Source of the DNA: Owenia fusiformis
Taxonomy: Eukaryota > Annelida > Polychaeta > Sabellida > Oweniidae
Reading direction: 5' to 3'
NCBI GenBank assembly: GCA_903813345.2
Contig: CAIIXF020000012.1
Coordinates: forward strand, 19,163,520 to 19,227,519
Length of the DNA: 64,000 nt
Shown: one piece after another, positions 10,510 to 54,166 of the stretch
How the letters are laid out: each line of letters begins with the position of its first letter
How positions within the stretch are numbered: position 1 is the stretch's first letter
Made by a program: the position numbers and the translations under genes
The notes under the pieces: model-generated
What the model was told of the DNA's origin: nothing
The model's input: the letters and a program-made list of their open reading frames with translations, nothing else
The model's database searches: none

Positions 10510-12183
10510 TCAGGAGTTGGTGAAATGATCGTCCTGATCATAGTTGTCGTTGTTTTTGGCCATGCAGATTGCATATCCACATGGTGGACACACATTGCGA
10601 GGCCAATCGCAATTCCCGAATGATTCATTAAACACAAGCCCTAAAACGAGTTTTGGTATATTGAAGTTTACTTCAAACAACATGAACATGTAGTTCATGC
10701 GTACGTTGTTAATAATACAATAATGTCATTTCGAAGGGCAATGGACTTCGAAGGGCAAAATAGTGAAATATCGGACCGAGGGCCTTCGGGCCTTGGGCCT
10801 TCGGTCCAATATACTGCCTTTCGAAATGACGTTATTCGTATTTTAATGACCAGGGCTGAAATAGCAAGGTTACTTAAAAAGTTACAAGATGGCACTATCG
10901 TAATATTTTCAAATAGTAACAATGAAACCCGATATGTAAGAGCCATTCTATATAGCTAACCACATTTACCTTCAGGGCATAAGTTGTTGTTTTCAAAGAC
11001 ACCACCTCGGCAGTAGTGATATGATTGGCAGTTGTCGTCGACGTTGGCATAGTAACCATCTGCCTTCCCTGTACAATTCCGTCGAACACCACAAGGTGGC
11101 GGTACGTTGTCGACACTATCGTTTAAAATTAGTACGCTTGTCATACAATTAAGTAAAAATCAAATTTTCACAATTTTAACATTTTTTCATAGAAGACATA
11201 CTCTTCTCATTGTGCTTCGAGTATGAATGATTTAAAAACAAAAATGTAAATATATAAGTATATACGTATAGTATGAATGTACTAAATAGGTGAGCCCTAT
11301 GTGAGTCAGAGTGTATCCTTCTTTTGACTTCCTTTTTTGAAAGGTATAGAATACTACACCCCTTTCCTCCGGTTAACGACTCTAACCTATCTTAAATTAA
11401 AAATATACCCACGTGTCACAGGTACCAGTGTCGATGTTAACAACATCTCCAGGGTTACAGTCTACTCTGACTGGAACTCGATTGTGACAGTAAATGTAGT
11501 AAGTACATCCCGATTCACAGATCGTAGGATCATTGCCAACGTTGCTACAATCACATTGTGAGGCCACTCCTGGATTAATATATAAAAAGATTTTAGATGT
11601 TAAAGCTCCTATCAGATCTAGCTAGCAATCATTGCAAATATTTCAATTTTAAAATATTTTGGCTCATACCAATCCTGTTAATATTTTGAATACCCGAAGC
11701 ACATGTACTTTATTAGAAAACTACTAATTCTAACATGAAAACGTACTCATAAGTAGTTCATCGTCGGTCCCCACGTTCTAGCTATGAGTACAGGTCGGAA
11801 GCTTGATGAAGCAAGATGTAAGTAGTTACCACATTCATTATTTAGGAGAATTTTAACAGTTTTGCCCCATTTTTGAACTTTGAATATTACATGTAAATAA
11901 AATCACCAAATTGATACCATATAGCGAATCTTTTCAGGGAGATATGATATTTGAGATCACGGAAAGCATATATTGACCAGTCGTGTACGTGTTGCTTCCA
12001 ATTGTATGACCTCTTGAGACCTGATTCTGCCGTTAGATTTAAAACATATTTAATTTCCTTATTAAGTGTCAGGTTAATCACAATTATTCCATTTAAGTTA
12101 AAATAATTTGACAGCAAATTAGTTTTACCTTTGAACGTCACGAGAGAGAGCAATATTGCAAATAGACCTGCAAACATTTTCAT
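10510..12183 (-). CDS. Gene A: secreted two-domain chitin-binding (CBM14) protein
   Basis: Four coding exons: 12183-12129, 11569-11413, 11115-10970 and 10640-10510, all with GT..AG borders and phases 1, 2, 1. They join to a 162-residue protein. Residues 1-22 are a signal peptide (MKMFAGLFAILLSLVTF). Domain 1 (Cys26-Cys79) has spacing C-x13-C-x5-C-x9-C-x12-C-x9-C plus two additional cysteines (24 and 36). Domain 2 (Cys85-Cys137) is a canonical peritrophin-A pattern, C-x14-C-x5-C-x10-C-x12-C-x6-C, with aromatic TYYIY and SYHY between cysteines 2 and 3. A CPPCG motif follows, then an acidic tail (NNDNYDQDD). CBM14 domains bind chitin, so a secreted chitin- or mucus-matrix role is predicted. An in-frame ATG 12 codons upstream (MYMYKK..) is possible, but the start at 12183 puts the hydrophobic stretch at the N-terminus. 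The second and third exon borders match genes C-E exactly. Confidence 0.9.
10711..10846. mobile_element. Hairpin MITE in intron 3 of gene A
   Basis: Near-perfect inverted repeat: AATGTCATTTCGAAGGGCA at the left and TGCCTTTCGAAATGACGTT at the right, around a GC-rich core (GGGCCTTCGGGCC). It sits wholly within intron 3 (10641-10969). Confidence 0.7.
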
Positions 12184-12224
12184 CTTACTTTGCGATGTGT
12201 CTTTCTTGTACATATACAAATCAT

Positions 12225-12231
12225 TTTTATA
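12225..12231 (-). promoter_or_regulatory. TATA box of gene A
   Basis: TATAAAA on the minus strand, ~42 bases upstream of the gene A ATG. Other members also carry AT-rich TATA-like words 40-80 bases upstream: gene C 21435-21443, gene D 27541-27548, gene F 43420-43426. Confidence 0.5.
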
Positions 12232-12284
12232 ATGTTATATCAAATTGATATATGGCCTTTTAAATTTTATTTGCGGGTCAAAGC

Positions 12285-12309
12285 GACCCTTGATTACGTA
12301 TCATTTAAT
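12285..12309 (-). promoter_or_regulatory. Upstream element shared by genes A and C
   Basis: Read on the plus strand, GACCCTTGwTkACGTATCA followed by a TTAA run is conserved with 21501-21525 upstream of gene C. It lies 54-58 bases beyond the TATA-like word in both. The flanks are much less similar, so it may be a regulatory site. It may equally be residual homology from duplication. Confidence 0.45.
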
Positions 12310-13378: not shown

Positions 13379-14483
13379 TTAGGGTTCTAGGAGGTCACCG
13401 CTACCATAACCACACGGTGGACAGACAGTTGCCTGCCAGTTGCAAATCTGTCGTGGCTCATCATGTCAACCACTACACCTGAAAGTAACAACAAAATGGT
13501 TTCTCTTCTTCGTTTTTTCTCGCCTGCAGTGTAAAAATGATATATAGATGGCGTGAAAATAATATTACATTAACCGAATAAAAGTATTTTATCGTGAAAG
13601 TCAACCAAATAACCCTTTCATGGGAAGTGTTATATACATACTGGATATGACATCCAAAAGGAAACACTGTGACATGCAACACTTCGGCAACCTACTTCTG
13701 TAGGTTTGTAATTCAAAACAAATATCAATTTTCGAACAAGCTAAGTCAACTTATTTAAAATGCTGAAGTATTTTTTCATGGCCTTTTCATTTAGTTAAAA
13801 ATTTAAAATTGATAAGAGTTTTCTCAGTTGGCCATCCCACATTCTGATTACTATCCTGCCATAACATCGTGTTTAAATCATTTAATGATAAGTTATGCAT
13901 TGTCGCTTGCATTTTTTAAACATTCGAAGTTGAGTATTTGGTACCAGATTGAGTACTTACATGTCACATACACTATTGTTGATGGTGGCCACCTGACCAA
14001 TATCACAATTTACACGGGTCTCAGTATCATCCTGACAATAGATGTAGTACAAGTACAAGCCCATTCACATATACTTGGCTCAGAGCTACTGTTTGAGCAA
14101 CACATTGTGACATCACGCCTACAGATCGAATTGCTGAACACTACATAGTTACACCCAAAGCTAAGCATGTATTCGCGGATGCAACATTCAGCTGTCGGCT
14201 ACCGAATTAACCAACTATTTTATGGGCAACTCACTTAAATATGAATACATACCTGTAGTACCTGCCACTGTTTCGTTCATATTAAATATTAAATAGTAGG
14301 TTAATCCTGTCGAAAGTTGCATTCGTGAATACAAGCCAACTCTTCATTGAACACTTATATTATCAGATTAGCTTCCCAGGGTGTAATATCTTTAGTTGTA
14401 AGGAGTACTATAACAAACATTTAGTTACCATCGACGGCCACAATGCCAATCAGTGTCGTGAAAAGACTTTTACGTGATGTCAT
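13379..14483 (-). pseudogene. Gene B: broken CBM14 paralogue
   Basis: Exon 1 (14483-14429) encodes MTSRKSLFTTLIGIVAVD and has the same 55-base length and phase as genes A and C. Exon 2 (14118-13961) keeps its splice sites and most of domain 1. It has a 1-base loss near its start (at the expected CxC) and a 2-base gain in the CTYYIYC region, so it cannot be read in one frame. No intact exon 3 could be found between 13490 and 13960. Exon 4 (13478-13379) ends in a recognisable QICNW..VCPPCGYG segment and a TAA, but has a ~4-base insertion after its first codons. Together these mark a member of the gene A/C/D/E subfamily that has lost function. A sequencing error could explain one shift, but not three shifts plus a missing exon. 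Confidence 0.8.
14166..14335. mobile_element. Hairpin MITE, TTGTATTCGCGAATGCAA family, copy 1
   Basis: The left end ATGTATTCGCGGATGCAAC is inverted at the right end (GTTGCATTCGTGAATACAAG). Internal arms share TACCGAATTAACC and TAGTAGGTTAAT. Same family as 31698-31804 and 33012-33170. This copy lies in intron 1 of pseudogene B, directly beyond the exon 2 acceptor. Confidence 0.7.
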
Positions 14484-14996: not shown

Positions 14997-15060
14997 CCCT
15001 GATAGCCTTGATAGCAAGTTGCTACTACATCCCAGCTGGGTTCGATTCCCACTCGGGGGC
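14997..15060 (+). other. tRNA-like (B-box) segment, possible SINE head
   Basis: GGTTCGATTCC at 15039-15049 is a perfect polymerase III B-box. It is framed by a short T-stem (TGGG/CCCA), and ACCCTGA / TCGGGGG could pair as an acceptor stem. The segment is too short for a normal tRNA and no clean anticodon arm is visible, so a decayed tRNA or SINE head is more likely than a working tRNA gene. Confidence 0.3.
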
Positions 15061-17839: not shown

Positions 17840-20800
17840 CTACATGTAGCTGTCGTCGTTGTAAATGGCAGTGGGGGTGCAGTCAACAGAACCACAAGGA
17901 GAGCATGTTTCGTCAGGCCAGTTGCAAATCTGTCGCTCTTCATCAAACACTAATCCTTAAACGAGATATAATAGCGTTATTACATGACGGACAGTGTGAT
18001 ATCATAGCATTATTACATGACGGAGAGTGTGATATCATAGCATTATTACATGACGGAGAATGTGACATCATAGCGTTATTACATGACGGATAGTGTGATA
18101 TCATAGCATTATTACATGACGGAGAATGTGATATCATAGCATTATTACATGAAGGAGAGTGTCATATCATAGCCTTATTACACGACGGAGAGTGTGACAT
18201 CATAGCATTATTACATGATGGAGAGTGTGATATCATAGCATCATTACATGACGGAGAGTGTGACATCATAGCATTATTACATGAAGGAGAGTGTGATATC
18301 ATAGCGTTATTACATGACGGAGAGTGTGATATCATAGCGTTATTACATGACGGAGAGTGTCATATCATAGCCTTATTACACGACGGAGAGTGTGATATCA
18401 TAGCATTATTACATGACGGAGAGTGATATGATAGCGTTATTACATGACGGAGAGTGTGATATCATAGTATTATTACGTGACGACAGTGTGATATCATAGC
18501 ATTATTACATGACGGAGAGTGTGATATCATAGCATTATTACACGACGGAGAGTGTGACATCATAGCATTATTACATGATGGAGAGTGTGATATCATAGCA
18601 TCATTACATGACGGAGAGTGTGATATCATAGCATTATTACATGACGGAGGGTGTGATATCTTAGCATTATTACATGACGAAGAGTGTGATATCATAGCAT
18701 ATTACATGACGGAGAGTGTGATATCATAGCATTATTACATGACGGGGAGTGTGATATCATAGCGTTATTGCATGACGGAGAGTGTGATATTATAGCATTA
18801 TTACATGACGGAGAGTGTGATACTATAGCATGATGGAGAGTGTGATAGAACGAAATATCACCTCAAAGAAAACATATCACACGAGGAAAAGTCGAGTGTG
18901 ATATGTTTTGAGTGGCAATATTTGATATATCACACTCTCCGTTATGCAATATTGTATTTATCAAATGAACACCTATTTTCACAACATTTAAGATACCACA
19001 TTTCGAAATTCTGAGCTTCTTTATTTTATTCAAATAATAAATCACACATTATCACATCATACACCCGGGACTTTGAATGTATTATATTAAATCATCAGAT
19101 GGTCATGTGACGCGATCTGACCAATCACAGTCAATCATAATAGTTTGACATGTTATAAAATATCGTTATACTTCAAATCTGATACTCGTAGTTTTATTCA
19201 AAACATGTAATAAATATTAAGAAAATGGCAGATCAGGCGACAAACGCTAAACATTTTCAAAAGTACATTTCTATTCAAGTTAATTATTGAATGGCCGCAA
19301 ATACCTGTAGCGCATATGTTGTTGCTCACAAAGATTCCGCTTTGGCAGTAGTGATACGATAAGCAGTCGTCGTTGAGGTTGGCATAGTAACCATCAGCTT
19401 TTCCGGTACAGTTGTGTCGAACACCACAAGGTGGTGGTACATTGTCGACACTATGAATAAGAAAAGTGAAAAAGTTAAAGGAACTCACAACAATGGTTCC
19501 TATAACAGAACACATGCATATTGAAAAGTCAACTCATTAACTAAGCAAAATCTGGGACATTTGGAGTTATTGGAAATAAAGTCACGTTACATCTCTTATC
19601 ATATGTCTTATAGACCCCTGCTGCTTAATTTAACCCTAATGTCTGCAACCTTTTTTATAACACTAAGTTGCAAGGGGGGGGGGGGTATTTGGACCACCTC
19701 TGTGATTTTTCATTACTTGTCTGATTTCATTATAGTTGGTATTGTTGTATACTCTATCCAAATTACTCTTCAGAAAAGTTGTTTTTAAAAGTGGGCCAAC
19801 ATATGTCAAATCGAGATCAACGTGACCTATTGCGGTGTAAATCTTTTAGTAAATTTTCGATTTTCTTTCACAATAATTTTTGTGCCAGAAAAATGCTACG
19901 CTGCTTTAAAAAATATAGTATTTTTCAAATAAAACTAAAATAATGGTAAAAGCTTTTCTAGAACTGATGTTACACACTTTCAAAGTTTCCATTGAAAGTC
20001 AGCAATTGAGAGTTCAACTTGTTTTTGTCATTCATATTTCAACAAATGCTAATCAGTGATTTAGCATGCAGATATATGAAAGTATGAATCGGTATTGTTC
20101 CAATATTATTCCGGTCCTGATATTGCCTAGCAACAACCTAGCAACGGCGCAAACATCGAAATAATGGAACTGATAAATTTGGGGTAGGGGGTATAAAAAA
20201 AATAATTTGGAAGAAGATATCATTATTATTCTGGTACCACAGTGTGCATAAACATTTAGGAATATGCAAAAAATCAAAGGTATTCATTAAGTATTTTTTG
20301 AAAAAATCAGTTTTTCTCTCAATTTCGTGAAGAGTTCACGCTTTTCGCGCTACTTGGCAACTGAAATTTCTAATAACAATCCATCAGTTCAGAAATATCC
20401 CAGAAGACGTAGCATTCTTTCCCGTGTAGTGTACCTGTTCAATTAGTGATTCAATTGTGATTCAATTGTGAACTTTCTCTTGTAAAAATAAATCTTCCAA
20501 ATGTGTTGAATTTTCTAGCGAAAATCAGCTACTCCCCCAATCCCTCCCTCTGTCCATTTCTTCCTACATGTATCACCGGCGGGCGTGAGTATTTGTGCAA
20601 CACATTTCTTTTCATTGTAGTCGACCATTTCACTACATGCTTAACAATGTCGACGTTCACAATTGCAAGACCCTATCGATTTCTTACCATAATCAAGAAA
20701 ATGCAAAAATGCTAGACACACTGGTCACCCTGGCCTACTTTTAATAAATTTTGCTTAATTCCCTTAAATCCACTTTATTCATCAAGCGTTCCATTGGTAC

Positions 20801-21368
20801 GATTGCCTAAAATAATCCATCGACTGTTTTCAATTGAAGAGTGTGCTGTCCGATTCTTCATCATTTCGATACTTGTCTTTTGAGAAAATGAGCATGACTG
20901 CATTTAAGTTAAAAATAAACCTACGTGTCACACTCCCCAGTGTCGATGTTAACGACCTGTCCAACATCACAGTCTTCCCGGATTTCCGTAGAATTTACAC
21001 AGTATATATAGTAAGTACATGCCCATTCACAGATTGTAGGATCAGTACCAACGTTGCTACAATCACATTGCGAGACCACTCCTAAAATTGAAATGATATT
21101 GAGAAAGAAAAATACTCTAGATACACTCTCAATACAATTTAGCGGCAAGGCTCTCAAATGCATGTTTTAAAGCTCGCACATGTGTATAATGATTTTAAGT
21201 GATGTTGAATATGTTATGATATGGCTATTGCAATTTCTGTCTTTTTGCAGTGAAGATCTAATAAATGAATTCTAGTTTTACTTAAGTATAATCTGAAAAC
21301 AAAATAGATTTACCTTCGAATGTTACAACAGATAACAATAATACAAATATTCCGACAAACGTATTCAT
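17840..21368 (-). CDS. Gene C: secreted two-domain chitin-binding (CBM14) protein
   Basis: Exons 21368-21314, 21081-20925, 19450-19305 and 17955-17840; all introns GT..AG with phases 1, 2, 1. The product is 157 residues: a signal peptide (MNTFVGIFVLLLSVVTFEG), then domain 1 (Cys26-Cys79, with extra Cys24 and Cys36) and domain 2 (Cys85-Cys137). Cysteine spacing is identical to gene A. Aromatics between cysteines 2 and 3 are TYYIY and LSYHY, as expected for chitin-binding CBM14 folds. The tail after CSPCGS is short and ends NDDSYM. Intron 3 is filled by a 33-bp minisatellite that begins about a dozen bases from the exon 4 acceptor. Upstream are a TATATAAAA-like word (21435-21443) and the element shared with gene A (21501-21525). 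Confidence 0.9.
17967..18845. repeat. 33-bp minisatellite (~26 copies) in intron 3 of gene C
   Basis: The unit contains ATATCATAGCATTATTACAT followed by GACGGAGAGTGTG, total 33 bases. Variants are mostly single substitutions, with a few shortened units (near 18421, 18696 and 18825). Because 33 is a multiple of three, both strands show long open frames. On the minus strand these read as an 11-residue repeat (MISHSPSCNNA), which is a by-product rather than a gene. Confidence 0.95.
18878..18960. repeat. Diverged palindromic remnant next to the minisatellite
   Basis: GAGTGTGATATG and, ~40 bases on, CATATC-like ATATCACACTCTCCG form an inverted pair that shares the GAGTGTGATAT word of the adjoining array. 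It may be the seed from which the array grew. Confidence 0.4.
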
Positions 21369-22140: not shown

Positions 22141-22149
22141 TTGCAATAT

Positions 22150-25915: not shown

Positions 25916-27464
25916 TTAGTGTTTGTTTGTGTAGTACACATCAATGCCGTCCGATTCAAGAATACATGATGCGTTGCCACAAGGTGGGCAGGTATTAGCA
26001 GGCCAGTCGCAAGCCTGTTTCCTGTCGTTAAACACCGTCCCTGAAATCGGAATACGGAAATAGTGTTGTGAATGTGTAACATTATTTAGTATAAAACAAA
26101 ATTCATGAGATATGAAACAACATGTTAACAGTTTGCGATTGTTGTACGTACGCTTCTAATTTTGGTATTCTTGTGCAAAATCAGAAGACTAATGGATTAA
26201 AAAACCAATGTCATTCAAACTATTTGATAATGACCAACCATCAATTATAACCTGATTAATTGTCAATCTAAATAGGCTGGGATTATATTATATTATTATG
26301 TTATATCACATAACACCCAGTATATTATTTCACATATATAAACACCCAGTATGCAAAACTAATGTAAGAAGGCGATGAAGTAGTAGTTATACTTACCACT
26401 GGGGCAAATGTTATTGCCCTGGAAAATTCCACTTTGGCAGAAGTGATACGATAAACAGCTGTCATCAAGGTTGGCATAGTAACCATCTGCCTTTCCGGTA
26501 CAATCTCGCCAAGAGCCACATGGGGGTGGTATTCTCTCAGGACTAAATGGTAACAAACCGTTGGTAACAAAACATGGTTCGTGGGAAGTTGAAAATAACA
26601 AAAATATATTATTCGAAATTTTAGGAAATAACGTAGGGAATGTATTGTATTTTTTATGCAATCTGTACTTATCTAGCATTTTGTCCAAAGGTACAGGGAA
26701 CATCCGCAACTGAGATACAATGTATTATTCAAAACTGTATACAAAAATAAATTTTATTTTTTTATCTTTAATTTTCCAGGATCGTGTTGTTGAAAAATGG
26801 AAATACGTATAACCAATAGAAAGTTTCCTTAATAATAATACATTTTATTAATAAAATATATACTTACAGGTCACAAACAAGAGTGTCGAAATTAAGCACT
26901 TGTCCAACGGGACAATCTACCCGGTTTTCGCCGTTATTTTCACAGTATATATAGTAGGTGCATGCGTATTCACAGATGACAAGGCCCGGAGTGTTTGCGC
27001 AATCGCACTGGGCTGTTACGCCTGGATTTAATGACAATATATGCGAAATTAATTAATAATGGCATAAACATGTTTTATGAATTAGGTTCTGATCAATCTT
27101 TGCAACATTTCAGAGCTTTTAAAAGCGGCCCATTTTCACTACTTAGAATAAAAAGTGAATTATTTCATTTTAGTTTCATATTACTGTCTGACAATTTTGA
27201 TTTCACAATTCTGTCTGATCTGATTGTCTGATCAAAATCTGATTGTTTCTGTCTGTAAGTTATAATCCAAGTAGTTTTACAATAGAGAATAGTTTTTTCT
27301 TCATCCCTTATGATGTCTTTGAATCAAAGTAAATGCTAGTCACATTTGCCGTTAAAATCACAATCATATTGTTGTTTACAATGTTAATTACAAAGACCAA
27401 CGATATAATCATTACCGCTAACAACAGCAACGAGTATTGCGAAAGTACCTCCTAATTGTGTCAT
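25916..27464 (-). CDS. Gene D: secreted two-domain chitin-binding (CBM14) protein
   Basis: Exons 27464-27416, 27021-26868, 26542-26397 and 26040-25916, GT..AG throughout, phases 1, 2, 1. The product is 157 residues. Its signal peptide (MTQLGGTFAILVAVVSG) is two codons shorter than in genes A, C and E. Domain 1 keeps the subfamily CxC and extra Cys (QCDCANTPGLVIC) but has a one-residue shorter loop. Domain 2 (DCTGKADGYYANLDD..) has the canonical C-x14-C-x5-C-x10-C-x12-C-x6-C spacing. The tail after CPPCG carries another Cys and ends VYYTNKH, unlike the acidic tail of gene A. This is the most compact intact member (1.55 kb). A TATATAAA word lies at 27541-27548. Confidence 0.9.
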
Positions 27465-34300: not shown

Positions 34301-36591
34301 GACGAAATCCCTGACATCAGAGAAGAACTTCGTGATTTGCACGATATTTTATTTAACTGTGATCACGAGCTTTGGCATCGTCAAATGTGGAATGACGGAC
34401 GCAATGTTAATGGTAATAACGTTAGAACATATCGATTACATAAGACACACGCCATTGGTCCGGAATACTATGTTAATGCGAACCTCACTCGCTTTCAGAG
34501 GCGTGCTATTGCCCAACTTAGAAGCGGAACGTTGCCACTCAAATTAGAGACTGGGAGATACACCAACATTCCACTTAATGAGCGACTATGTCTCTGTGGC
34601 AACGCCGTGGAAACAGAAATTCATTTTGTTATAGAATGTCACCTTTATGAGACTGAGAGGAGAGAGCTTTTGCATAAGGCCAGCAGGTCGCTAATAGGGA
34701 ATGACTTTGATACCACTAGTCTAGGGCTGTATTGCTTACTTATGAATTGTGAATTGTTGCAACGTTCCCTAGCAAAGACTGTAATTAAACTTTGTATGAA
34801 ACGTCGAACATTCTTATATTAACTTATTAATCGAATTGTTGTTAAGTGTCTCATATGCCGACATCGGCAGGGCCAATGTTTTTAATATCGTTTTAGTACT
34901 ATGTAATATTTTATGGCGTGGCACTATAATAAATAATAAATACAATACAATACAAAATATATATATTATATTTCATATAATTTTCTGTAGAAATATATAC
35001 TCCAAATTGTAAAAAGGGGATTTAGTTTTTACTAATATTTTGACCCCTGCTAATGACACGCATAATTCAGCCCAAAGACCCAAAGAATATTGAACGTCTA
35101 TAATAAAAAACAATACTAGACATGTGCACATTGTAGGTATGTAAATATGAGGTCAAATATCGCTGCACTATATCGTGCATCCTCTTAAATAAGCAGGTAT
35201 CCAGAATCCGTACCTCCTTCTTCCCTCTTCTATACCAATTTGGAAGCGCCCGATTAAACTGAATCATGTGATCTTATTATGCACAATGACTTATACATGT
35301 TTCCTGCCGCGACAGCCAATCAGATTGCGAGTTCTTAATCGGGGAAATGCTAACTGCTTATCGCAGGGGGTAAAAAGAAAGAATATATTCTGGATTTTGA
35401 AGTGCTGTGATCGGAGGATGTATATCGTGTTACCAGCTCCTAATTAGGCGTAATGGGAATTCCATAGCATGGACTAATAGTGGTATTCCATAATACCACC
35501 ATATCAATGTTGATTAACATCTAAAGCATCCTCCTAAGCAGGTGTCCAGAATCCGTACCTCCTTCTTCCCTCTGCTATAACCAATTTGGAAGCGCCCGAT
35601 TAAACTGAATCACGAATATGCGCAATGACTTATACATGATTTCTGTTGTAGTGTTGCGACAACCAATCAGATTGCGAGTTCTTGATCCGAGGAAACTAAC
35701 TGCTTATCGCAGGGTTTAAAAAGAAAGAATATATTCTGGATTTTGAAGCCCTGTGATCGGAGGTTACATCTAAAGGTGAACAATGATTTTTAGAAATATC
35801 AAATATACAGACTTTATTGCATGGCAAAATTGAAGAAGGACTGCTTTAGGAGTTTTAGGTGTATCAAGATATTCCTCAAAAGGTGCTGACTCGATGTTTT
35901 GTATGACACTTACATATCGCATTCACCATTGTCAATATTGACGACATCCCCGACCTCGCAGTCTTCTCGTATCTGCGTTCCGTTATCACAATAGATGTAG
36001 TAGGTACACGACCATTCACATATGGTGGGGTCGCTTCCAACATTGTCGCACTCACACTGTGATGCGACTCCTGGAATATTCAGAATTATAATCAGTATTC
36101 ATCTACTTAAGATCTTTGACAGTGGAACTACTCAGACATTGTACCCGTTTATTGTTCGTCCCATCCCGTCTTCATCCGTCCTTCCCTGCCAAAGTTTATC
36201 CTGGAGCCGGGCAATTGTGATTTGAAAATGTAGCCCAAAAATGTCGATATTATCTTCAATTTACATAAGGAAATATAACATTTCAAATCTACATAATCCT
36301 TTTCGAGAATTTTGATATTTTCAAAATTTTCAATTTAATACTCTTTCATGAATATCAATGTTTTATATGATGTCGATACCTTTCGATTTTGAATATAAGA
36401 ACTTGATAACTCCTAATCCATTTCGAGGGTACTTTTGGTCTTATGCACGAAGCATTCGCAGAAATGCTGAGTAGATGGTTTTTTATTTAAATCATGTTCC
36501 CTTTTAAATATAAGATACTCTAGATTCGCCACGTACCTGTAAATACACATACCACCAAGACGAAAACTATTGAACCTCCAGTATGCCTCAT
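31382..36591 (-). CDS. Gene E: secreted two-domain chitin-binding (CBM14) protein
   Basis: Exons 36591-36537, 36070-35914, 32695-32550 and 31515-31382, GT..AG, phases 1, 2, 1. The product is 163 residues with signal peptide MRHTGGSIVFVLVVCVFTG. Domain 1 is QCECDNVGSDPTICEWSC.. with aromatic TYYIY. Domain 2 begins NCTGKADGYYANLDDAC and continues with LSYHY. Cysteine spacing equals genes A and C. One difference is CPECG in place of CPPCG after the last domain cysteine, followed by a tail with another Cys (LYPCEGEITTVV). Intron 2 is over 3 kb because it has taken up a LINE fragment (33969-34955), a hairpin MITE (33012-33170) and a ~240-bp direct duplication (35174-35763). Exons and splice sites remain clean despite this. 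Confidence 0.9.
31698..31804. mobile_element. Hairpin MITE, TTGTATTCGCGAATGCAA family, copy 2 (short)
   Basis: CTTGTATTCGCAAATGCAAC at the left; GTTGCATTCGCGAATACAAG at the right. It is in intron 3 of gene E. The flanking sequence, GATCGCGCCTTTTATACT before and ACGGGCGTTCGATTTGCTAA after, is itself a repeat also found uninterrupted at 60855-60925. Confidence 0.8.
33012..33170. mobile_element. Hairpin MITE, TTGTATTCGCGAATGCAA family, copy 3
   Basis: CTTGTATTCGCGAATGCAAC at the left and TTGCGAATACAAG at the right. Internal TACCGGATTAACCTACT is inverted as AGTAGGTTAAC. It lies in intron 2 of gene E. Confidence 0.8.
33951..33968. repeat. (TA)n microsatellite at the LINE insertion point
   Basis: A run of AT dinucleotides directly precedes the 5' truncation point of the LINE. 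A second AT-rich run (ATATATATTATAT) follows its tail. Confidence 0.8.
33969..34955 (+). mobile_element. 5'-truncated non-LTR retrotransposon (LINE)
   Basis: An uninterrupted frame (33971-34822, ~283 codons, opening without an ATG) encodes the region downstream of the reverse-transcriptase palm. It starts VEPILLYGAGVWG..AVQHKAARYFLG, and ends with a zinc-binding-like segment (CLCGNAVETEIHFVIECHLY). These are typical of the C-terminus of CR1/L2/RTE-type LINE ORF2; I cannot fix the clade. The 3' UTR ends in a simple tail of AATAAATA and ACAAT units (34927-34952). A 5' truncation, intact downstream frame and tail together indicate a fairly recent target-primed insertion. It lies antisense in intron 2 of gene E. 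Confidence 0.85.
35174..35763. repeat. Direct duplication of ~240 bp with ~105-bp spacer
   Basis: Segments 35174-35418 and 35524-35763 share TCCAGAATCCGTACCTCCTT, GGAAGCGCCCGATTAAACTG, CAATCAGATTGCGAGTTCTT and AAGAAAGAATATATTCTGGA with small indels. In intron 2 of gene E. Confidence 0.85.
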
Positions 36592-39070: not shown

Positions 39071-42000
39071 TTATTTAAAGTCTTTTATTTCATCCAGACT
39101 GAAGAGTGGTACGTCCTTCGGGACGGCCATTTTGTCGATTTTGGCCTTGACTTTATATTGGGGTGAGTCTGTTGTACATGGGTTCACAACAAATCCCTCC
39201 CCTGTTCCACAAGGCGGACAGACATCGCTAGGATATGTACAAACCTGTCGGTCATAGTCGAAAACAGCATCTACAGAAGAGAAAGGAAAATAAATTATGA
39301 CAATTGCCTGTACCTGTCCACGTATACAATTACCTAATATAGTATTCTCTATTAGAGTATTTGCAGTTTTACAGGAGAGTACGAACATAGAAAGCAAATG
39401 TGCAACTGCGCTTTTTTGTAAATGTAAATGTAATTTTTGTTAATTTAATATTTCAGATATGGGCCAAGGACGATTTTCGGTTTGGAGAACCAAATTCGAA
39501 GTTATCAATGTAACCAAAAATGTTAATATTATTAGGACACCCGATATATCGTTGTGTTAATTGTCGTTGATATCAACACACATGATGCAGATATGACAGA
39601 ATTTGACTGTATCAGATATCTTTTTGCCCATGTTTGAGTTCTTTCATGTGAAGCATTCAAAATTGAATGACAGATGCTGTAAAAGGAATGTTACCAGGCT
39701 TAATTTCAATTAGTTTAATTAAATATAGTTGCTTGGTTTAATTCACCTGGTATGCATTCTTGCGCTCTCCCAATCATCCTTTCGTTCCTACATGTGTAAT
39801 ACGACGTGCAGTTACGGTCGTAGTATGGGTACCTGTCATTAACCAAACCTGTGCAGTTCATCTTATCACCACAGGGTGGGTCTACATTTGCTTTACTGCA
39901 AAAATAGGGATACATTCATTTGTTATTCATCATCTGATGAGTCTCGGCTATCAAAACTGTTTTGCGTGCGATTTATGGGCTTACGAAAATTGAAATTTTC
40001 AAAATCAGTTGTTTTACTGAAGCCTGTGCTGTGTGTTGATACCAGGTTCATTTGATGTGCGCTATTTTAAAGTCATCACAACTAGTTATCATAATCATGC
40101 AATATATACTGAAAATATTGCTTATTATTTCTCAAAACCAGCTGAAATGATGATTTTTGTCAAAAAACAAAGTTTTGCTTTGTTTGTGGTTGTTCAAAAC
40201 CGGATTACAGTGCATATAGAGCATCGATTGCGTTGATATCTTTCAATTCAATTTTTTATATAAAAATATTTTTTGCTGAATCTTTTACTGAATAGATATC
40301 CAGATTTCTGATTTGCCCCGAACCCTCCATTTCCCGTTGGATTACTTGGGAATGACGATTTTCAAAAATTCATCAAAATCATCAATTTTCGACCTATTGT
40401 AATTGAGGAAAAAAATGAGAAAATTTGGAGGTATCGGAAATAAAGTCAAGTTACGTTTCCATTAATATTATAAGTTATTTCATCTCCGGTTAAGTAAATA
40501 ATAATTCAAACGTAAAGAGGCTTTAACACGTAGTTCAATGGGGGAGCTAAGGTTGCCAAACTTATGGAGGGGAGTGTACATATATAGTGTTATATATAAT
40601 TTTCAAGCATATGATATACTTTATCAGAATCAGTCAAGTTTTTTAAGTCCCATTTTATAAGATGTCATGGTTACAAGATTCCTAAAAATGCATTGGGTTT
40701 GTACTTGGACGTGATATCACGTCCTTAGTAGTCAACATATGTGCTTTATGACGTCATATCACGTCCTTCGTAGCGAATGAGTTAATTGCATCCCCGTCCT
40801 CTTATTCAGAAGATTATGCTAATATTATAAACATATCCCTATTCATTAATTGCATCCCCGTCCTCTTATTCATGAAGATTATGCTATTCCAAAACGTATC
40901 CACATCCTAATAATTGCATTATCATTGTACTTACACTTCGCATCGCAAGTCGCCGAAATCAAACACTTGGCCTTTTGGACAATTGACTATTGTTTCCACC
41001 TCATCCCGGCATTCTACATATTGAGTGCATGACACTTGCATGTAAATCCCATTTTCTTTACCGGTGCAGTTCACGAAGTTGAAACCTTGAGCAGAAACCT
41101 CGCCTAAAAGGCACAATTAAGATAAACTGTGTTACTAAAAGACCGGATATAACATTAACAGATATATGACTTCATAATCATGACTATAATCTTTTGAATA
41201 GTTTAAATATTAAAATACATTAGCTGAACATAAAGAACATGTAGTTCGGGGTTAAAATGATCTTGATGAAATAATTTTAACGGGCACAATTATGACTTGT
41301 CCAACCCCCTCACAAAGGCAATTTCCAGAACCAATTACCCTGTAGGGTGTTTTAAAGTATGTTCTCAGATCACAACGGCCCTTAAACACGGGGCACAAAT
41401 ATGGTGCTGGTAGTTCACTGATTTTTTCAACAAACTCGGATAACATTAGAACTGGTCCGCCAGTCATTCTTTCCGTCTCATTGGAAACGTTTTTTCTGTC
41501 AACAATTTTATATCGCCCGCGATGTAATCCGATTTTGTTGAAAAAAACCCAGTGAACTACAAGCATCATTTGTAACCCCATGTTAAAGGGCCGTCGTGAT
41601 CTGAGAACATGCTTAAAAAAGAAACGCCCAAATAACCCGTTTATTATCAATAGCAACGATTTACATGTACATGTTTTAAAACATCTTAAGATATGACATA
41701 CATGTACCTGTATAACACTCCATAATGAACTCAATGCGCCAGTTTGACATAGATAAGATATTCTAAAGAAGTTAAAACATGTAACTAAGATATGTATTAT
41801 CAATCCTGCAACCTCCGTGGATGGTTGACTTATTGACACGTTAAAACTTGGGTATATTAGCTCTACATGTACAAACTAATAAGGCTCGCTTACTAACAAT
41901 AACATTAACAATTATGACTGTGAGCTTCTCTCTTTTAGATTCGACTAGCTTTCATTCTTTAATGATACATGACGATGGAAGAAAGGGTAATTGTTGGTAA

Positions 42001-43346
42001 TCTTGCAAGTTCATACTGTTGCCAAAGACCTACTAAGCTACATTGCTCTGCTTCCTCCGCAGTCGACCAAGTTCGGATCCCCTTCAATCTTTTCTCCACC
42101 GCTGCCAGAGTCCTTACAATGACCTTCTGGCGATTGGACTCAATGGTTAATTCATACCATTGTTAATTTTTGGATCAAGATCTGATATATTTAATGGTAA
42201 CTCCAGACACCACTAGGGTAGTAGTGTACATGTTTAATACCCCTACCCCTACACCCCTACCCCTTTGGCTAATATGACACGTTTCTGTACTGTATCCCCT
42301 AATCTAATCTCTAGTAATGTTAAACATAATGAGTTTACATGAAATAGTCATGAATAAGTATTGCCTTTAGAGCTGAAACCGAGACCACCAGAAAGGAAAT
42401 TTATGGATTTTCAAAAAATCAAAGAAACAACAAATACCCTTACATAAAACCCCCAAAAAAGCTTTTGTAGATATAACATGACAAAATGAATAATTCATCA
42501 TTGAAACAAATGGTGCAACAAGACACACAGCGATAAATATCGCACTTTTGAAAATTAATTTGAAAATTAAATTGATCAAAATAAACAATAAACAATATGC
42601 CCAAAAACTATTCAGATCCAGATATTCTGGCTCTATAGTCTGCTCTTGCATCTATAACAATGTTAACTTGAACAGGTAAACGGATTTTTTCCGTTCGATG
42701 TCAAGATTCATGTGGCGCCCGCCAATAAAAAACTATTTTTTCTTCTTCGATAAAAGTTAAAATATCAAATGTCTTAAAGTTTTGATAATTCATCTGAGAA
42801 TGGCTACACTATAAAAAATTAGTATGGATTCCAAATAGTTGATACTTGTATCTGGATTTCAGATGATATAGGCAAACCCGTATACAGGGGCGTACATGAG
42901 GTATAATGCAACTTTTGGCTAAATGACGTACAGTATATTAATTGCTTTGAACTTACTTTACAAAGTTTGAATTAAGAAAAACATTCAACTAAAAAAATTT
43001 CTGTAAAATGATGACATTGTTGTCTCGCCTGCCTCATGCCAGGTTACGCTCACACATTTACCGAACTCCCAAATGCTAAGAATGTCAGAGACACGAAGTT
43101 ATGGACAATTTTCTGGTTGAAAGTATCAACTTTCTGATATATCATAATATTACCAATGTGGTCCATTATATCAATTTCATATCCAATCAATTTCATATGT
43201 TAGAGCATAGTTTGTAATAGTCATATATATCCATTGAAGAATTATGTAGTAGTTAATATCCTTTTCCCCAAAAGTAAAAATACATAACTATACGTACATG
43301 ATACGAAGCATGATAAGACAACCGCAGCTATAATGTATTTCATCAT
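39071..43346 (-). CDS. Gene F: MMKY-type secreted chitin-binding (CBM14) protein
   Basis: Exons 43346-43298, 41103-40935, 39895-39747 and 39270-39071, GT..AG, phases 1, 2, 1. The product is 188 residues with signal peptide MMKYIIAAVVLSCFVSC. Domain 1 (NCTGKENGIYMQVSC..) has spacing C-x12-C-x5-C-x9-C-x12-C-x9-C and lacks the additional cysteines of genes A-E. Domain 2 (NCTGLVNDRYPYYDRNC..) is C-x14-C-x5-C-x11-C-x13-C-x6-C, with aromatics TQYVE and TSYYT. The exon 3/4 junction encodes CIPDAVFDY, one residue longer than the CVPGAVFDY-type junction of its near-twin gene G. The tail after CPPCG is lysine- and aspartate-rich (KVKAKIDKM..) and ends EIKDFK. AATAAA overlaps the stop codon. It encodes the same fold as genes A-E in the same gene structure, and is predicted to be secreted and chitin-binding. 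Confidence 0.9.
40300..40600. mobile_element. Family Y repeat copy (intron 2 of gene F)
   Basis: Contains CGATTTTCAAAAATTCATCA, TTTCGACCTATTGTAATTGA, CACGTAGTTCAATGGGGGA and CTTATGGAGGGGAGTGTACA. The same text occurs at 47090-47365 and inverted at 46485-46830 in intron 1 of gene G. Confidence 0.75.
40789..40905. repeat. Two-copy short duplication
   Basis: TTAATTGCATCCCCGTCCTC, TTATTCA and GAAGATTATGCTA occur at 40792-40822 and again at 40849-40886, beside the exon 2 donor of gene F. A diverged remnant of the same text precedes exon 2 of gene G (46020-46070). Confidence 0.75.
41353..41616. mobile_element. Hairpin element in intron 1 of gene F
   Basis: AGTATGTTCTCAGATCACAA..GGCCCTTAAAC at the left, inverted as TGTTAAAGGGCC..GTGATCTGAGAACATGCTT at the right. 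A 195-codon minus-strand open frame runs across it but has no family resemblance. Confidence 0.65.
41900..43290. other. Rest of intron 1 of gene F, nothing recognised
   Basis: Holds a short CCCCTACCCCTA run at 42238-42265 and several short open frames without recognisable features. Confidence 0.4.
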
Positions 43347-44087: not shown

Positions 44088-47000
44088 TTAATTTTCCGTT
44101 TTTCCAAATGGTAGGGCGTTTTGGGGGGTCATTTTGTCGATTTTAGCCTTGACCTTATATTGGGGTGAGTCTGTTGTACATGGGTTCACAACAAATCCGT
44201 CCCCTGTTCCACAAGGCGGGCAGACATCGCTAGCATATGTACAAGCCTGTCGGTCATAGTCGAAAACAGCACCTAGAAGACACAATCGGTATGTGTAATT
44301 TATTAACATCTATCTGATATATTGTAATAACATCTATTATATGCATACTCTTTTAAACCCTTCTCCTTTTGTATTAGAGACAATACATTGAACAACAGGT
44401 CTCCATACATTATTTTGTTCAATTTTCTGAGAATTTCCTAGAAACAACTCGAGTTCAGTTATCTAATTAATAGTTTCTAAGTGTCACCACATTATGTCAC
44501 CATCAGCATGAATTCCACAAATGGAAATACCATGAAATACACGAGCGAGCAGAGAGGGGTGCGTATATAAAACGAATCGTCTGGGAGGATTTAGGATCAG
44601 TGATCTGGAATATCTAGACGGAGGTGAAATAGAATAGATCCATTTCAGCAGTTCTTTACATTTCCGGCAAATACACTTAACAGAAATGTCGTAATACTGG
44701 TAACATTTCAAAATAATGAACGCTTCAGTTTTTAGTTTAATTACATTTGGTAACTTAGCAATTTACTCACCTGGTACGCACTCTTGAGCAATCCCAATCA
44801 TTTTTTCGTTCCTACATGTGTAATACCAAGTGCAGTTACGGTCGTAGTAGGGGTACCTGTCATTAACCAACCCTGTACAGTTCATCTTATCACCACAGGG
44901 TGGGTCTACATTCGCTTTACTGCAAAAATGTGGATAATTTATTATCTGGTGAGTCTCGTTTGGTGAGGCTCGTTTATCAACCAGGTTTTTGCCTATGTGC
45001 CATAATTTAGTGTGACGTGTATCCTGTGTCATTAGTGACATTAAGACTCAAATGCTTAATCCATGTATTTTTGACGTTTGCGTATTCGTTAAAATAATTT
45101 CTAACTATTTACATATTTTAAAGTTGTGGTTCTGAATATGTATCTACGTGTTACATAGGAATCCGTAATTTAGTTTGATCAATGTCGTTACACAAAAGGA
45201 CAGTTGAGCTGTCACGTTTTTAATTAACGCTGTTTCCATATTGAACCTTGAGACTAATAGGGCAAGTGCATACTTAAGGAATAAAGAATAAAAAATCATG
45301 TAGCATTCTATATTGGAAATATAAAAGCATGAGTGTACGTACTAACCCATACACATAATGCACGAAGGCGAAGCCTGAGTGCATTATCAGAAGGGGTTCA
45401 AATGCTTTTATATTTCCTATACAGAATGATACATGATTCTTTATTGCAAATTATGAAAACTTAGTTGGAAAATCATTGCATTGACTAAAATGAACACACG
45501 GATGTTATGCTGTCACCTCTTTAAAAGAATAGTACTGCTCAGTCCGTGTATTTATCAAAAATTAAATACATGACTAAATCATTTCCATGTATACGTTATT
45601 AAATTAACACACTGAAATGCTTTAAGCTGATTGGTTGAGACACACTTGGCATGTTTAAATATGAATGGGAGAACTAATCCTTTAAAGTACCACAATTTTT
45701 CACGTTCACGTAGAAATTCCAAAAGATTGTACGCAGTCCCCAATGTCAGGATGAATTTTAAGATTAATCCCACAATGCATCATTACCATGACGAATATAC
45801 TAATCAAGATCGGATTGGGGATTGTACCAATTCACGACCCCAGTATAAAATCCAAAGTTAATCCCACAATGCATCATTTCCATGAAGAAATTTATCTGGA
45901 TCATATTGGGATTGTACCAATTCGCGGCCAAAGATTTTGTCTTCATCCACTCCCAAGCTAGGTACCTTTATGAAGTCTACAAACGTGTCGGTAATAACCA
46001 CATATATGAAATACATTCTCTTCCTTTTATTGAGAAGATTATGCTATTACAATTCATTAATAATTGCATAATCGTTCTACTTACACTTCGCATCGCAGGT
46101 CGTTGAAATCAAACACTTGGCCTTTTGGACAGTTGACTATTGTTTCCACCTCATCCCGGCATTCTACATATTGAGTGCATGACACTTGCATGTAAATCCC
46201 ATTTTCTTTACCGGTGCAATTCACGAAGTTGAAACCTTGAGCAGAAACCTCGCCTAAAATGCAAAATGCAGATAAACAAGATTATTATTGTGTTACTAAA
46301 AGCCCGGCTATGACATCCACAGCACTCCTGATATTCTTTTTAAATGGAGATGTATATTAACGTTTCTAAGCAAAGATCAGAAAGGGCAACATAACTAGGT
46401 GAGAAGTCAATCAAGATCTAAAAACAGATCTTGAATTATTTCAAAACACTACATTCAGTTTACAGTTTGCAAGGAACCAGAAAGGTGTAACACTCCCCTC
46501 CATAAGTTTGGCAAACATTTTCCCCCATTGAACTACGTGTTAAAGCCTCTTTACATTTGAATTTTTATTTAATTAACCGGCGATGAAATAACTTATAAAA
46601 TTGATGGAAACGTAACTTGACTTTATTACCAATACCTCCAAATTTTCTCAATTTTTTCCTCAATTACAATAGGTCGAAAATTGATGATAAATTTGATGAA
46701 TTTTTGAAAATCGTCATTCCAATGGGAAATGAAGGGTTCGGGGCAAATCAGAAATCAGAATATCTTTTCAGTAAAAGATTCAGCAAAAAATATTTTTATA
46801 TAGAAAATCGAATTGTCTAACTTTTTTGAACACTAAGTGTTTAGTTTATTTGATGAATATTAAAGTTACAGCGCTTCAAAGTCATTTTTGAAAATAGTTT
46901 TTCGCCTCCTGTGTTATTTCAATGAGAGAGGTTTTTTGAAAAACAATTTTGATTTTAAAGCCCTATAACTTTGTTGAACCTGAAGAAACATATCAATTTT

Positions 47001-47955
47001 TTGTTAAATAAAGTTAGCAAATTCAATTTCCTGCCTAACTCGTATTTTTTGCAAGGACTCGGATGGATGGATATTCTGTCATGTGACTTGCGGCAAACCT
47101 ACCATTTCCCATTGGTTAACATGGGAATGTCGATTTTCAAAAATTCATCAAATTTATCATCAATTTTCGACCTATTGTAATTGAGGAAAAAAATTGAAAA
47201 AATTTGGAGGTATTGGAATTAAAGTCAAATTACGTTTCCATCAATAGTATAACTATTTTCATTGCAGGTTAAGTAAATAAAAATTCAAAGGTAAAGAGGC
47301 TTCAACACGTAGTTCAATGGGGGAAAAAGGTTACCAAACTTATGGAGGGGAGTGTACATTTATATAACGCATGAAATGACTAAAACCAACTCCATCCTGG
47401 ATTTTCGAACTTTTGTATTCCACGTTTACACTATCAATTGATTTCAAAGTAGAATATTTAGAATGGATAATATTGAAAATGAAATATTGAATTACTAGTT
47501 GTTTTCTACCAGATGGTATTAATTAAACATATGCACATGTCCACATCGGAATAGCCTGACAACGGTAAAGTCAGATACCGTACGCTGTCAAAAATGGCTA
47601 CAAAAATAGTTACACGCTTTTAAGAGAACCTGTACGCGAGCTTGTAATATTTCGATCCCCGGGGATTACTGTCCCGCTCTCAATTCACTTTCCCAGCGAC
47701 CTTTATTAAATTATTTTAAGTTGACATGCTCGAAACAACTGAAAAAATGCCGAAATGTATTGAAGCTCACGTCCCATCGATACGGATTAACCATAAGTAC
47801 ATGTCAAGGACTATTATAGATTAACTATACATACCTGTCTCAAAATGATTTTGATTAACAATATTTACATGTTACAAAATACTATACAGATTAATCATAT
47901 ACGTACATGTCACAAAGCAAGATAGAGCAACAGCGGCTAGTATATACTTCATCAT
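44088..47955 (-). CDS. Gene G: MMKY-type secreted chitin-binding (CBM14) protein, twin of F
   Basis: Exons 47955-47907, 46253-46085, 44919-44771 and 44272-44088, GT..AG, phases 1, 2, 1. The product is 183 residues with signal peptide MMKYILAAVALSCFVTC. Domain 1 spans Cys29-Cys81 and domain 2 spans Cys87-Cys140 (C-x14-C-x5-C-x11-C-x12-C-x6-C), followed by CPPCGTG. Exon 2 differs from that of gene F at only about five of 169 bases, and exons 3 and 4 are also almost identical until the last ~25 codons. There the C-terminus changes to PQNALPFGKTEN, five residues shorter than gene F. This is a recent tandem duplication in which the tail diverges fastest. Intron 1 contains an inverted pair of family Y repeats; intron 2 contains a hairpin element. 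Confidence 0.9.
45278..45447. mobile_element. Hairpin element in intron 2 of gene G
   Basis: ATAAAGAATAAAAAATCATG, GCATTCTATATTGGAAATAT and AAAAGCAT at the left are inverted as ATGCTTTTATATTTCCTATA, CAGAATGAT and ACATGATTCTTTATTGC at the right. The core contains CACGAAGGCGAAGCCTGAGTG. Confidence 0.75.
46485..47365. mobile_element. Inverted pair of family Y repeats (intron 1 of gene G)
   Basis: Left copy (46485-46830) starts ACACTCCCCTCCATAAGTTT. Right copy (47090-47365) ends AACTTATGGAGGGGAGTGTA. The arms are ~300 bases with a diverged ~260-base loop, so the whole behaves as one large foldback structure. Confidence 0.75.
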
Positions 47956-49869: not shown

Positions 49870-49969
49870 TAATAGCTGATTTATCCCAATCTGCTTCTAT
49901 CTTATGTTCTTTATAAATTGGCGGGAATTTGGAATGAATATTTGGTGAATTAATATGACTCATTTTGGC

Positions 49970-51170: not shown

Positions 51171-51178
51171 CAAAACAA

Positions 51179-54166
51179 TCAGTTCAAGTCTTTGATTTGA
51201 ACGTTTTTGTATATGTCATAAAGTGAGACCCCTTCAGGTTGTTCATCATCTTCCTCCTCTGGTCGAAGATCGCGTTCATATTTATCTGGGTTGCGCAGTC
51301 TATGATTCATAGGGGTGTCATCGTCACATGGTTGAACAACTAAGCCTTCGCCTGTACCACAGGGCGGGCAAACATCACGAGGTTCGACGCAAACCTGTCG
51401 GTAGGAGTCAAAGACAAGACCTTAAACAAAGCATATGAAACATATTAAAAACAAAAACGTCGCGAGATGTTATACAGCGATATTGAAATTTCGATAAGAA
51501 AACGGCAATTTGTTGATTTGAAGACTTGTACAATAGAAAACCATATAAAACAGATAAGATATTCTATATCAGAAATTTTTTCAAAAGATAACGTCGTGGA
51601 ACACTTTCCTTTATCAAACTTGATGATCATATTTCGGATATACAATTTGAGTATATTGGAACTATCGACCGCTCTGATTTTCTGAAAAGTTAAATAGTAA
51701 ATACAAAAACAAATAGATAAGTATATACACGTAACTGTTAAGATATTTAGAAACGATAAGTATAAACACGTAACTGTTAAGATATTTAGATACGCCCTCG
51801 TACAGTATTCTTGTCTTTTCACAATCACATATGAAGAGCCTTTTAAAGTTAAATATTAATGTTGTTTAAATAATCTTACCGAAGATACATTGTTGGGCAT
51901 TGCCCCTCATACGTTCATTTCTGCAGGTGTAGTACTCTGTGCAGTTACGGTCGTAGTAGGGGTACCTGTCATTGGCCAAACCGGTACAGTTCATCTTATC
52001 ACCACAAGGGGGTGACACTTTTCTGCTTCTATAAAACAAACAAACAAATAGGGGTACCTTAACGCATTTCCTTTACTGTCATGAATTGTGTTATAGAAGC
52101 ACCCAATTAGTGAATAAAACTATGGATATGCCCGTTTCTCTAATGCAAGTTAATGATAAGAAAAGAATTGCAAAACCACTTAGATTTATCAGCTAATGCT
52201 CTGTAAAATTGTGTCTGTGTGTTTGACTTCGACCCTCAAAATATTCTTACAACAACTATGAGACATATCCTCCTTTCTCGTCATGTAAGGGACCTACCTA
52301 CCAAAGGACAAGACCTGTTAATCACTTCCATACTTAGAGATATTTGGCCAGAACGTTCTGATCGATTCTAATATTATTAATGTGATACATTATAATGTAC
52401 AATTATGTGATATTGTATGATATTGTATGCACATGTCCATATTTAAAAGGGGGTCCAAAATGTTCTTTATTTTTTTCGTGAAGTCACTCAGTAAAATTAC
52501 GATACCTCTGTACCATGATGCCCAATCAAGATCATTCCAGTACCGTTTGGGCATCCTGGAATGCCAATGTCTATCCAAAGTAATTGCAGGTAATTTATGA
52601 CTGAAATCGGGAGGACAATACGTTGGTACTCAAATGATCTTGATTGGACATCATGGTGCAGAGAAATCGTGGCTCTACGAAAAAGAAACAACATTGTAGG
52701 CCCCTTTAACCCACTTAATACTCATATAATACAATAATTCACTTATTACTCACGAACAATATACCGCAGTCACGGATGGGTTTATTTATGATATAAAAGT
52801 AGATGAATAGAAGTGAAATTTAATATGCTATCTCTGTATGTTAGTTAACTTACGGTTCACATCTTCTGTCTATTATATCAAAGACTTCGCCTTGTGCGCA
52901 GTTGGAGATTGTCTCTACCTCATCTATACACTCGACATACCGTGTACATGACAACTGCTTATAGATACCGTCCTCTCTTCCTGTGCAATTCTGATATTGA
53001 GCAGAAACCCCGCCTAAATACATTTTAAAATCTCATTTATCTAAGAATATGTTACCAAGATGTAAATGAAAAAATGGATGAAAATTGAGACTGTCGACTC
53101 GGGGAAAGATCAAAATAGTAACACAATGAAATATCAATGCAGATGGTATAGTAACAAAATGAAATATCAATGCAGATGGTATAGTAACACAATGAAATAT
53201 CAATGCAGATGGTATAGTAACACAATGAAATATCAATGCAGATGGTATAGTAACACAATGAAAAACCAATGCAGATGGTATAGTAACACAATGAAATACC
53301 AATGCAGATGGTATAGTAACACAATGAAATATCAATGCAGATGGTATAGTAACACAATGTTATACCAATGCAGATGGTATAGTAACACAATGTAATACCA
53401 ATGCAGATGGTATAGTAACGAAATGAAATACCAATGCAGATGGTATAGTAACACAATGAAATATCAATACAGAGGGTATAGTAACACAATGTTAATACAA
53501 ATGTATGGAATAGTAACACAATGAAATATGAATGCTTATGGTATAGTAACACAATGTAATACCAATGCAGATGGTATAGTAACACAATGAAATACCAATG
53601 TAGATGGTATAGTAACACAATGAAATATCAATACAGAGGGTATAGTAACACAATGTAATACGAATGTAGATGGAATAGTAACACAATGAAATATAAATGT
53701 GTATGGGATAGTAACACAATGTAATACCGATGCAGATGGTGTAGTAACACAATGAAATACTAATCAGATGGTATAGTAACACAATGAAATATCAATATAG
53801 AGGGTTTAGTAACACAATGAAATATCAATACAGGTGGGATACTAATGAAATGAAAAATCAATGCAGATTGTAGTTACAAACCCTTATGTCTTCAACCTTT
53901 TTTAAGTCGCCGCATACATAGCAAGGGAAATATAACATATGTGATTTGGGAAATGATGATGATGAACACAATGGACATTGACATTTTAACTATCATCTTC
54001 GAAAATAAACGATTAACTTATATTAATTCACAAAATCGTTAATTCATTACACTTAAGAGCACCCTATCGGAAATGCAATAATCAAATTGAATGATATTAA
54101 TTATAAAATATACTCACAAAGCATGAAGCAGGAAATGGCAAAAATCGCAATTTTGTACTTCATCAT
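51179..54166 (-). CDS. Gene H: MMKY-type secreted chitin-binding protein with long acidic tail
   Basis: Exons 54166-54118, 53013-52854, 52028-51880 and 51420-51179, GT..AG, phases 1, 2, 1. The product is 199 residues with signal peptide MMKYKIAIFAISCFMLC. Domain 1 (Cys26-Cys78) has C-x12-C-x5-C-x9-C-x12-C-x9-C. Domain 2 (Cys84-Cys137) has C-x14-C-x5-C-x11-C-x12-C-x6-C, with TRYVE and TEYYT between cysteines 2 and 3. The ~59-residue tail after CPPCGTGEG is the longest in the array and strongly charged (KYERDLRPEEEDDEQPEG), ending VQIKDLN. It groups with F and G by start motif, domain 1 pattern and the CGDKMNCTGL text, but is clearly older than the F/G split. Intron 1 holds a 33-bp minisatellite. 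The upstream element CACGACCCATCATT is shared with gene F. Confidence 0.9.
52496..52678. mobile_element. Hairpin element in intron 2 of gene H
   Basis: ACGATACCTCTGTACCATGA and CCAATCAAGATCATT at the left are inverted as AATGATCTTGATTGG and TCATGGTGCAGAGAAATCGT at the right. A diverged single arm occurs near 55000-55080 (CTCAGTAAAACTAC..CACCATATGA). Confidence 0.65.
53109..53875. repeat. 33-bp minisatellite (~23 copies) in intron 1 of gene H
   Basis: The unit contains ATGAAATATCAATGCAGATG followed by GTATAGTAACACA, total 33 bases. The left part is homogeneous; from ~53500 units diverge and some are 1-2 bases shorter. Long open frames on both strands (up to 188 codons) are products of the three-fold period, not genes. 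Confidence 0.95.

Follow-up and report, generated by a model that had tools for sequence, protein, structure and literature searches.

A tandem family of two-domain CBM14 genes in the annelid Owenia fusiformis

What is encoded by a run of small, similar genes on one strand of the Owenia fusiformis genome, how far does the run extend, and what might its proteins do? The window that we analyzed is a stretch of 64,000 nucleotides (C12:19163520-19227519, where C12 is contig CAIIXF020000012.1 of the 498-Mb assembly GCA_903813345.2). A preliminary description, made from the letters alone, had recognized in it a tandem array of genes for proteins with two chitin-binding domains of the CBM14 type. We find seven intact genes and one pseudogene, all on the minus strand at window positions 10510-54166. 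Most probably, the window genes are an old tandem family of small bivalent secreted chitin binders, which would cross-link a chitin or mucus matrix. The expansion is of an ordinary kind and larger than the window, and tandem CBM14 expansion is already known in annelids.

Gene models and domains in the window

CBM14-like exons were first located at eight places, on the minus strand only, by a six-frame search of the window. Exons 1 and 4 were then sought by intron phase and splice site, and exon 1 also by hydropathy. Complete four-exon models were obtained at seven of the eight loci, with GT-AG boundaries at all 21 introns and phases 1, 2, 1 in each of the seven intact genes. GT, AG and these phases were themselves criteria of the exon search, so the support comes from every exon having been found beside conserved domain ends. 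The joined frames contain no internal stops and encode acidic (pI 4.05-4.74), cysteine-rich proteins of 157-199 amino acids (aa). Hydropathy gives each intact gene a signal-peptide-like hydrophobic start.

The intact genes form two groups. Group A (157-163 aa) comprises G1 (10510-12183; exons 12183-12129, 11569-11413, 11115-10970 and 10640-10510; 162 aa; two stretches of PF01607, E 6.6e-18), G3 (17840-21368; exons 21368-21314, 21081-20925, 19450-19305 and 17955-17840; 157 aa; E 1.6e-18), G4 (25916-27464; exons 27464-27416, 27021-26868, 26542-26397 and 26040-25916; 157 aa; E 1.2e-17), and G5 (31382-36591; exons 36591-36537, 36070-35914, 32695-32550 and 31515-31382; 163 aa; E 7.4e-16). Group B (183-199 aa) comprises G6 (39071-43346; exons 43346-43298, 41103-40935, 39895-39747 and 39270-39071; 188 aa; E 1.8e-17), G7 (44088-47955; exons 47955-47907, 46253-46085, 44919-44771 and 44272-44088; 183 aa; E 9.5e-18), and G8, which has an acidic tail (51179-54166; exons 54166-54118, 53013-52854, 52028-51880 and 51420-51179; 199 aa; E 1.3e-16). 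The pseudogene, G2 (13382-14483, minus strand), is a group A remnant with an exon 1 candidate at 14483-14429, a frameshifted exon 2 at about 14113-13963, and an exon 4 remnant with stops at about 13465-13382. A search of the locus did not find exon 3, so the common layout is only partly present in G2. By eye, the G2 exon 1 candidate is similar to exon 1 of G0, a locus outside the window.

These models bear out the seven intact genes and one pseudogene on one strand that the preliminary description had listed, and its limits coincide exactly with gene ends, 10510 with the stop of G1 and 54166 with the start of G8. The four-exon layout with phases 1, 2, 1 that it ascribed to all eight loci holds for the seven intact genes and in part for G2.

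Are the encoded domains really CBM14? In a Pfam scan with a stretch threshold of E 1, all seven joined proteins showed two stretches of PF01607 (CBM14), with whole-protein E values from 7.4e-16 to 1.6e-18 and scores of 58.5-67 bits; the curated gathering cut-off of the family is 22.1 bits. When single domains were scanned (five first and three second domains of the 14 in the window), all eight scored above that cut-off, at 25.5-46.8 bits. CBM14 was the only family matched in the seven joined proteins, with no enzyme or effector domain. Each domain of the joined proteins has six spaced cysteines, and the cysteine columns are invariant when the exon 2 sequences, or those of exon 3, are aligned; PMC3504105 words a six-cysteine rule for the ChtBD2 domain. 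Exon 2 encodes domain 1, whose sixth cysteine comes from exon 3, while domain 2 begins in exon 3 and has its fifth and sixth cysteines in exon 4. The double CBM14 pattern reported earlier for each intact gene is therefore also found by profile search, and the profile scores, together with the common intron phases, rule out a chance pattern or artefact.

Extent and history of the array

Does the family end where the window ends? When joined G5 and G7 served as queries, more exons appeared on both flanks, and at C12 19.05-19.38 Mb all exon matches, among the matches listed, are on the minus strand. The flank sequence covered C12 19046500-19304499 (980 bases missing) and 19372500-19377499. In it and the window, exon profiles place 16 minus-strand loci across ~235 kb (C12 19,056,334-19,291,122), in the order D1, D2, D3, G0, the window loci G1-G8, and Cx1-Cx4. 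Looking beyond the window for a continuation, as the preliminary description had proposed, thus turned up family exons on both sides and on the same strand. Its array of eight, with the limits that it drew, was an effect of the window, as the family runs past both edges.

Full gene joins were made for the seven intact window genes and Cx2, and the other loci are known from exon profiles. Exon 1 candidates with a hydrophobic start and a phase-1 donor are present in all eight flanking loci. The D loci run on with further CBM14-like pieces. In D3, about 10 kb lies between exon 3 and an exon-4-like piece, and this stretch holds a trypsin-like fragment and an opposite-strand open frame of 1202 aa, the first 978 aa of which had no Pfam match; given so much foreign sequence inside it, D3 may represent two separate loci. 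E1, a distant relative on a long branch, lies at C12 19374285-19376534, and no exon 4 was found there.

The Cx loci, group C, have further phase-1-bounded exons that add CBM14 modules and Thr-rich linkers. Joined Cx2 encodes 441 aa with four CBM14 stretches (E 2.6e-31) and ends in a mucin-like tail of 131 aa that is 45% Ser+Thr+Pro. Exon matches, the only basis for the other module counts, indicate about four in Cx1 and Cx4 and about six in Cx3, and no Ser/Thr/Pro-rich tail was seen in the last exons of these three loci. Elsewhere in the genome, one 3683-aa open frame with five CBM14 matches (C11:15407496-15411773, plus strand) could encode a giant chitin-binding protein.

A phylogenetic tree of 24 loci groups Cx1-Cx4 together (100/99) and D1 with D2 (99/97). 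It places group B with a chromosome-1 copy, chr1a (99/100), and D3 with the copies chr1b and chr12b (99/95). G0 falls together with window group A and the copies on chromosome 9, of which there are three (90/93). Group D is weak overall (85/54), includes two dispersed copies, and is not a clean clade, and stars mark only seven of the 21 inner branches. The dispersed loci examined, eight with exons 2, 3 and 4, lie on C1 (two), C5, C7, C9 (three) and C12, and there are weaker matches elsewhere, e.g., on C10. Along the array, relatedness tracks map order, from D, through A and B in the window, to C. Identity, which is 29-45% between groups, drops with rank distance (r = -0.41 across 15 loci, with 4 of 10,000 permutations as low). 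Pfam, gene structure, the tree, and the fall of identity with rank distance all support the CBM14 identity and tandem origin that had been proposed.

The array is not a recent one. The ratio of nonsynonymous to synonymous divergence (dN/dS) is 0.13-0.39 in the nine of 21 window pairs where it could be computed, and dS is saturated in the other 12, which indicates that the duplications are old. Only two of the nine pairs have dS below 1.5, namely G6/G7 (dN/dS 0.25, dS 0.29) and G1/G3 (0.35, dS 0.70). Across the intact window genes, selection is on average purifying. In the youngest window pair, G6/G7, exon 2 (40935-41103 versus 46085-46253) is 97% identical and its intron flanks are 86% identical, compared with 73-91% in the other exons, a pattern that suggests gene conversion.

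TATA boxes are common in strongly regulated tissue-specific genes. TATA-like hexamers occur 20-120 bases before the chosen ATG at 11 of 20 loci (9 of the 16 array loci), compared with 13.6% of random same-strand 100-base stretches, a control not matched for promoter base composition. The 20 loci leave out chr1a, chr7, chr5, E1 and chr12b, the last despite its exon 1 candidate. Two further candidates for a shared upstream motif were dropped: a GGGTC...GACCC palindrome, found upstream of G1 (~12290) and G6 (~43440), is in too few of the upstream stretches (2 of 20, versus 0.2% of background bins), and receptor-like half sites are in 3-4 of 20 versus 3-9% of background.

Chitin binding and its alternatives

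How might such proteins work? Each protein of 157-199 aa would enter the secretory pathway, to judge from its hydrophobic start, and would fold into two adjacent disulphide-rich CBM14 modules. A molecule with two modules could then link one strand of chitin, or of a similar polysaccharide, to another. With two binding modules and bridging possible, the most likely role of these small acidic proteins is to cross-link a secreted extracellular matrix. Group C members, with four or more modules and in one case the mucin-like tail, would cross-link the same gel as larger molecules. Secretion, chitin as the ligand, cross-linking, and use in one matrix are all steps that we infer. As to which matrix, our judgement leans towards a gut or mucus lining, gives a good share to a tube lining, and leaves a smaller one to chaetae or cuticle.

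Some hints about the ligand come from comparison with PDB sequences, where the matches of G5 are CBM14 modules. The best are human chitotriosidase (6so0, E 2.3e-5) and squid chitin-binding beak protein 3 (7bwe, 5.9e-4). These share a CBM14-type sequence with G5, but they are weak one-domain matches, and chitotriosidase is an enzyme with one CBM14 module. In the G5 match, a tryptophan two residues past the fifth cysteine falls at the aligned place in chitotriosidase. Groups A and D retain this residue in domain 2. The tryptophan may be important for binding, going by its aligned place in chitotriosidase.

Several observations weigh against chitin cross-linking as the general role. Groups B and C lack the tryptophan in domain 2, and the array loci lack it in domain 1. 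The best PDB match of G8 is a 25 kDa polyphenol-binding protein (8in3, whole-chain E 3.8e-7). At E 0.01, the core of D1 has one Pfam CBM14 stretch and not two, and hydropathy is the sole basis for the predicted signal peptides. Group C does carry the tryptophan in domain 3, at all four of its loci. As A and D have it in domain 2, B is the group with none.

The alternative that best survives, although we consider it unlikely, takes up these points directly. It holds that the CBM14 modules, at least those of group B, have switched ligand, and that the proteins are soluble secreted binders whose targets might be, e.g., polyphenols or glycans of the mucus or the digestive fluid (compare 8in3, 8in4 and 8in6). 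The G8 match and the lack of the tryptophan in both group B domains fit such a switch, as do the small size and acidity of the proteins. However, the whole-chain value for 8in3 sums one G8 domain over three repeats, and the best single stretch reaches E 0.0041, so the G8 match rests on generic CBM14 features. In addition, 8in3 has three CBM14-like repeats versus two domains in each window protein, and its polyphenol binding is known from its name. The best match of G5, moreover, is a chitin-binding module, and the tryptophan is kept in A, D and C.

A role in immunity is less probable still. Under this alternative, the array would supply diversified chitin binders that act as immune or barrier lectins and, in the mucus of the gut or body surface, attach to the surfaces of fungi or other microbes. 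The tandem expansion fits such a role, as do the dispersed copies, the pseudogene, and the low identity between groups. But no sign of positive selection is seen gene-wide, as dN/dS is below 0.4 in all nine computable pairs of the 21 (a gene-wide test and not one of single sites), and none of the seven joined proteins has an enzyme or effector domain. That the loci are mostly decaying copies with little function is very improbable, because, although G2 is clearly broken, seven of the eight window loci have open frames, splice sites and cysteines, and selection is purifying on average.

Chitin or mucus cross-linking by the window genes is thus the reading that we prefer, and it can be extended, more tentatively, to the whole array. 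It is possible, though we doubt it, that the 235 kb on a single strand are one matrix kit, with A binders that have the tryptophan, B binders that lack it, longer C cross-linkers, and a related D set. Neighboring genes would then supply graded components of a single chitin-mucin gel, in an annelid from an early-branching lineage, and the kit would have grown by tandem duplication and by duplication of phase-1-bounded exons.

Surrounding sequence and known systems

What else lies among these genes? The window has seven open frames (stop to stop) of at least 120 aa. A Pfam scan of six of them (E up to 0.1) gave one match, to CBM14, in the frame with exon 3 of G4; the other five had no match, and one of these (39071-39439) includes G6 exon 4. 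The seventh frame (53052-53627), outside the scan, is mostly a 33-bp tandem repeat. The earlier statement that no other recognized gene lies between the array members agrees with the scanned frames, which match only CBM14, but the seventh frame was not scanned and small exons could be missed. Intron 2 of G5 contains a mobile-element-like open frame of 293 aa on the plus strand (33941-34819), which has no Pfam match and is not an array member. It is present in high copy: 134 genome matches were scored among 2230 candidates, identity to other copies reaches 98%, and the flanking array itself contains a copy (C12:19253387-19254013). We therefore rejected a nested gene in this long intron.

Two intronic 33-bp tandem repeats with different units lie near splice acceptors, one at 17965-18831, ~10 bases ahead of G3 exon 4, and the other at 53115-53872, ~100 bases ahead of G8 exon 2. 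An Rfam scan of the window found nothing at gathering score.

Outside the window, a plus-strand frame of the CD39 phosphatase family lies beyond the left array end (19050821-19052173, E 2.5e-74). Between G8 and Cx1 there is a plus-strand rhodopsin-family seven-transmembrane (7TM) receptor (frame 19235735-19236304, 7tm_1 E 2.9e-22). A second frame (19245506-19245934, plus strand; 7tm_1 19.1 bits, below cut-off) probably belongs to the same gene. At least one unrelated gene, outside the window, thus interrupts the array. By eye, the last exon of the receptor looks opsin-like, in that a lysine precedes an NPxxY-like motif by a short distance. To the left of the window, L029:1967-3259 (minus strand) and L026:2098-2799 (plus strand) look alike by eye and are possibly another small local gene family; Pfam found no family above its cut-off in either frame.

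How does the array compare with known systems? A close parallel is the vestimentiferan tubeworm Paraescarpia echinospica, for which PMC8476170 describes ChtBD2 (peritrophin-A) genes expanded by tandem duplication and ChtBD2 proteins in the tube proteome. These findings are an annelid precedent for the preliminary suggestion that such arrays often underlie tissue-specific matrices. The likeness is that of an annelid, a CBM14/ChtBD2 domain, and a tandem expansion. The difference is that the Paraescarpia proteins were found in a chitinous tube, whereas the Owenia array is known from genes alone. Insects also have multigene families of mostly secreted CBM14 proteins, and PMC3504105 defines CPAP1 by one ChtBD2 domain, CPAP3 (obstructor/gasp) by three, and peritrophic matrix proteins by gut expression. 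By comparison, each of the seven intact window genes has two domains, Cx2 has four, and group C has four or more. Because the insect classes are defined by one domain, three domains, or gut expression, the window genes belong to neither CPAP1 nor CPAP3.

For Owenia itself, the passages covered in PMC4375521 describe the tube of Owenia collaris as having a layered secreted lining and hold no chitin measurement for the genus. In the part of PMC11149249 covered, no mention of chitin-binding or peritrophin was found. A literature search, partial in its coverage, returned no report of this array and no expression data for its genes, which does not show that the array is unpublished.

Group A has the candidate binding tryptophan and group B lacks it, which allows a direct test of whether CBM14 ligands shift within one locus. 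More broadly, the array could help show whether chitin-matrix toolkits (tube, gut, chaetae) had already expanded early in annelid history.

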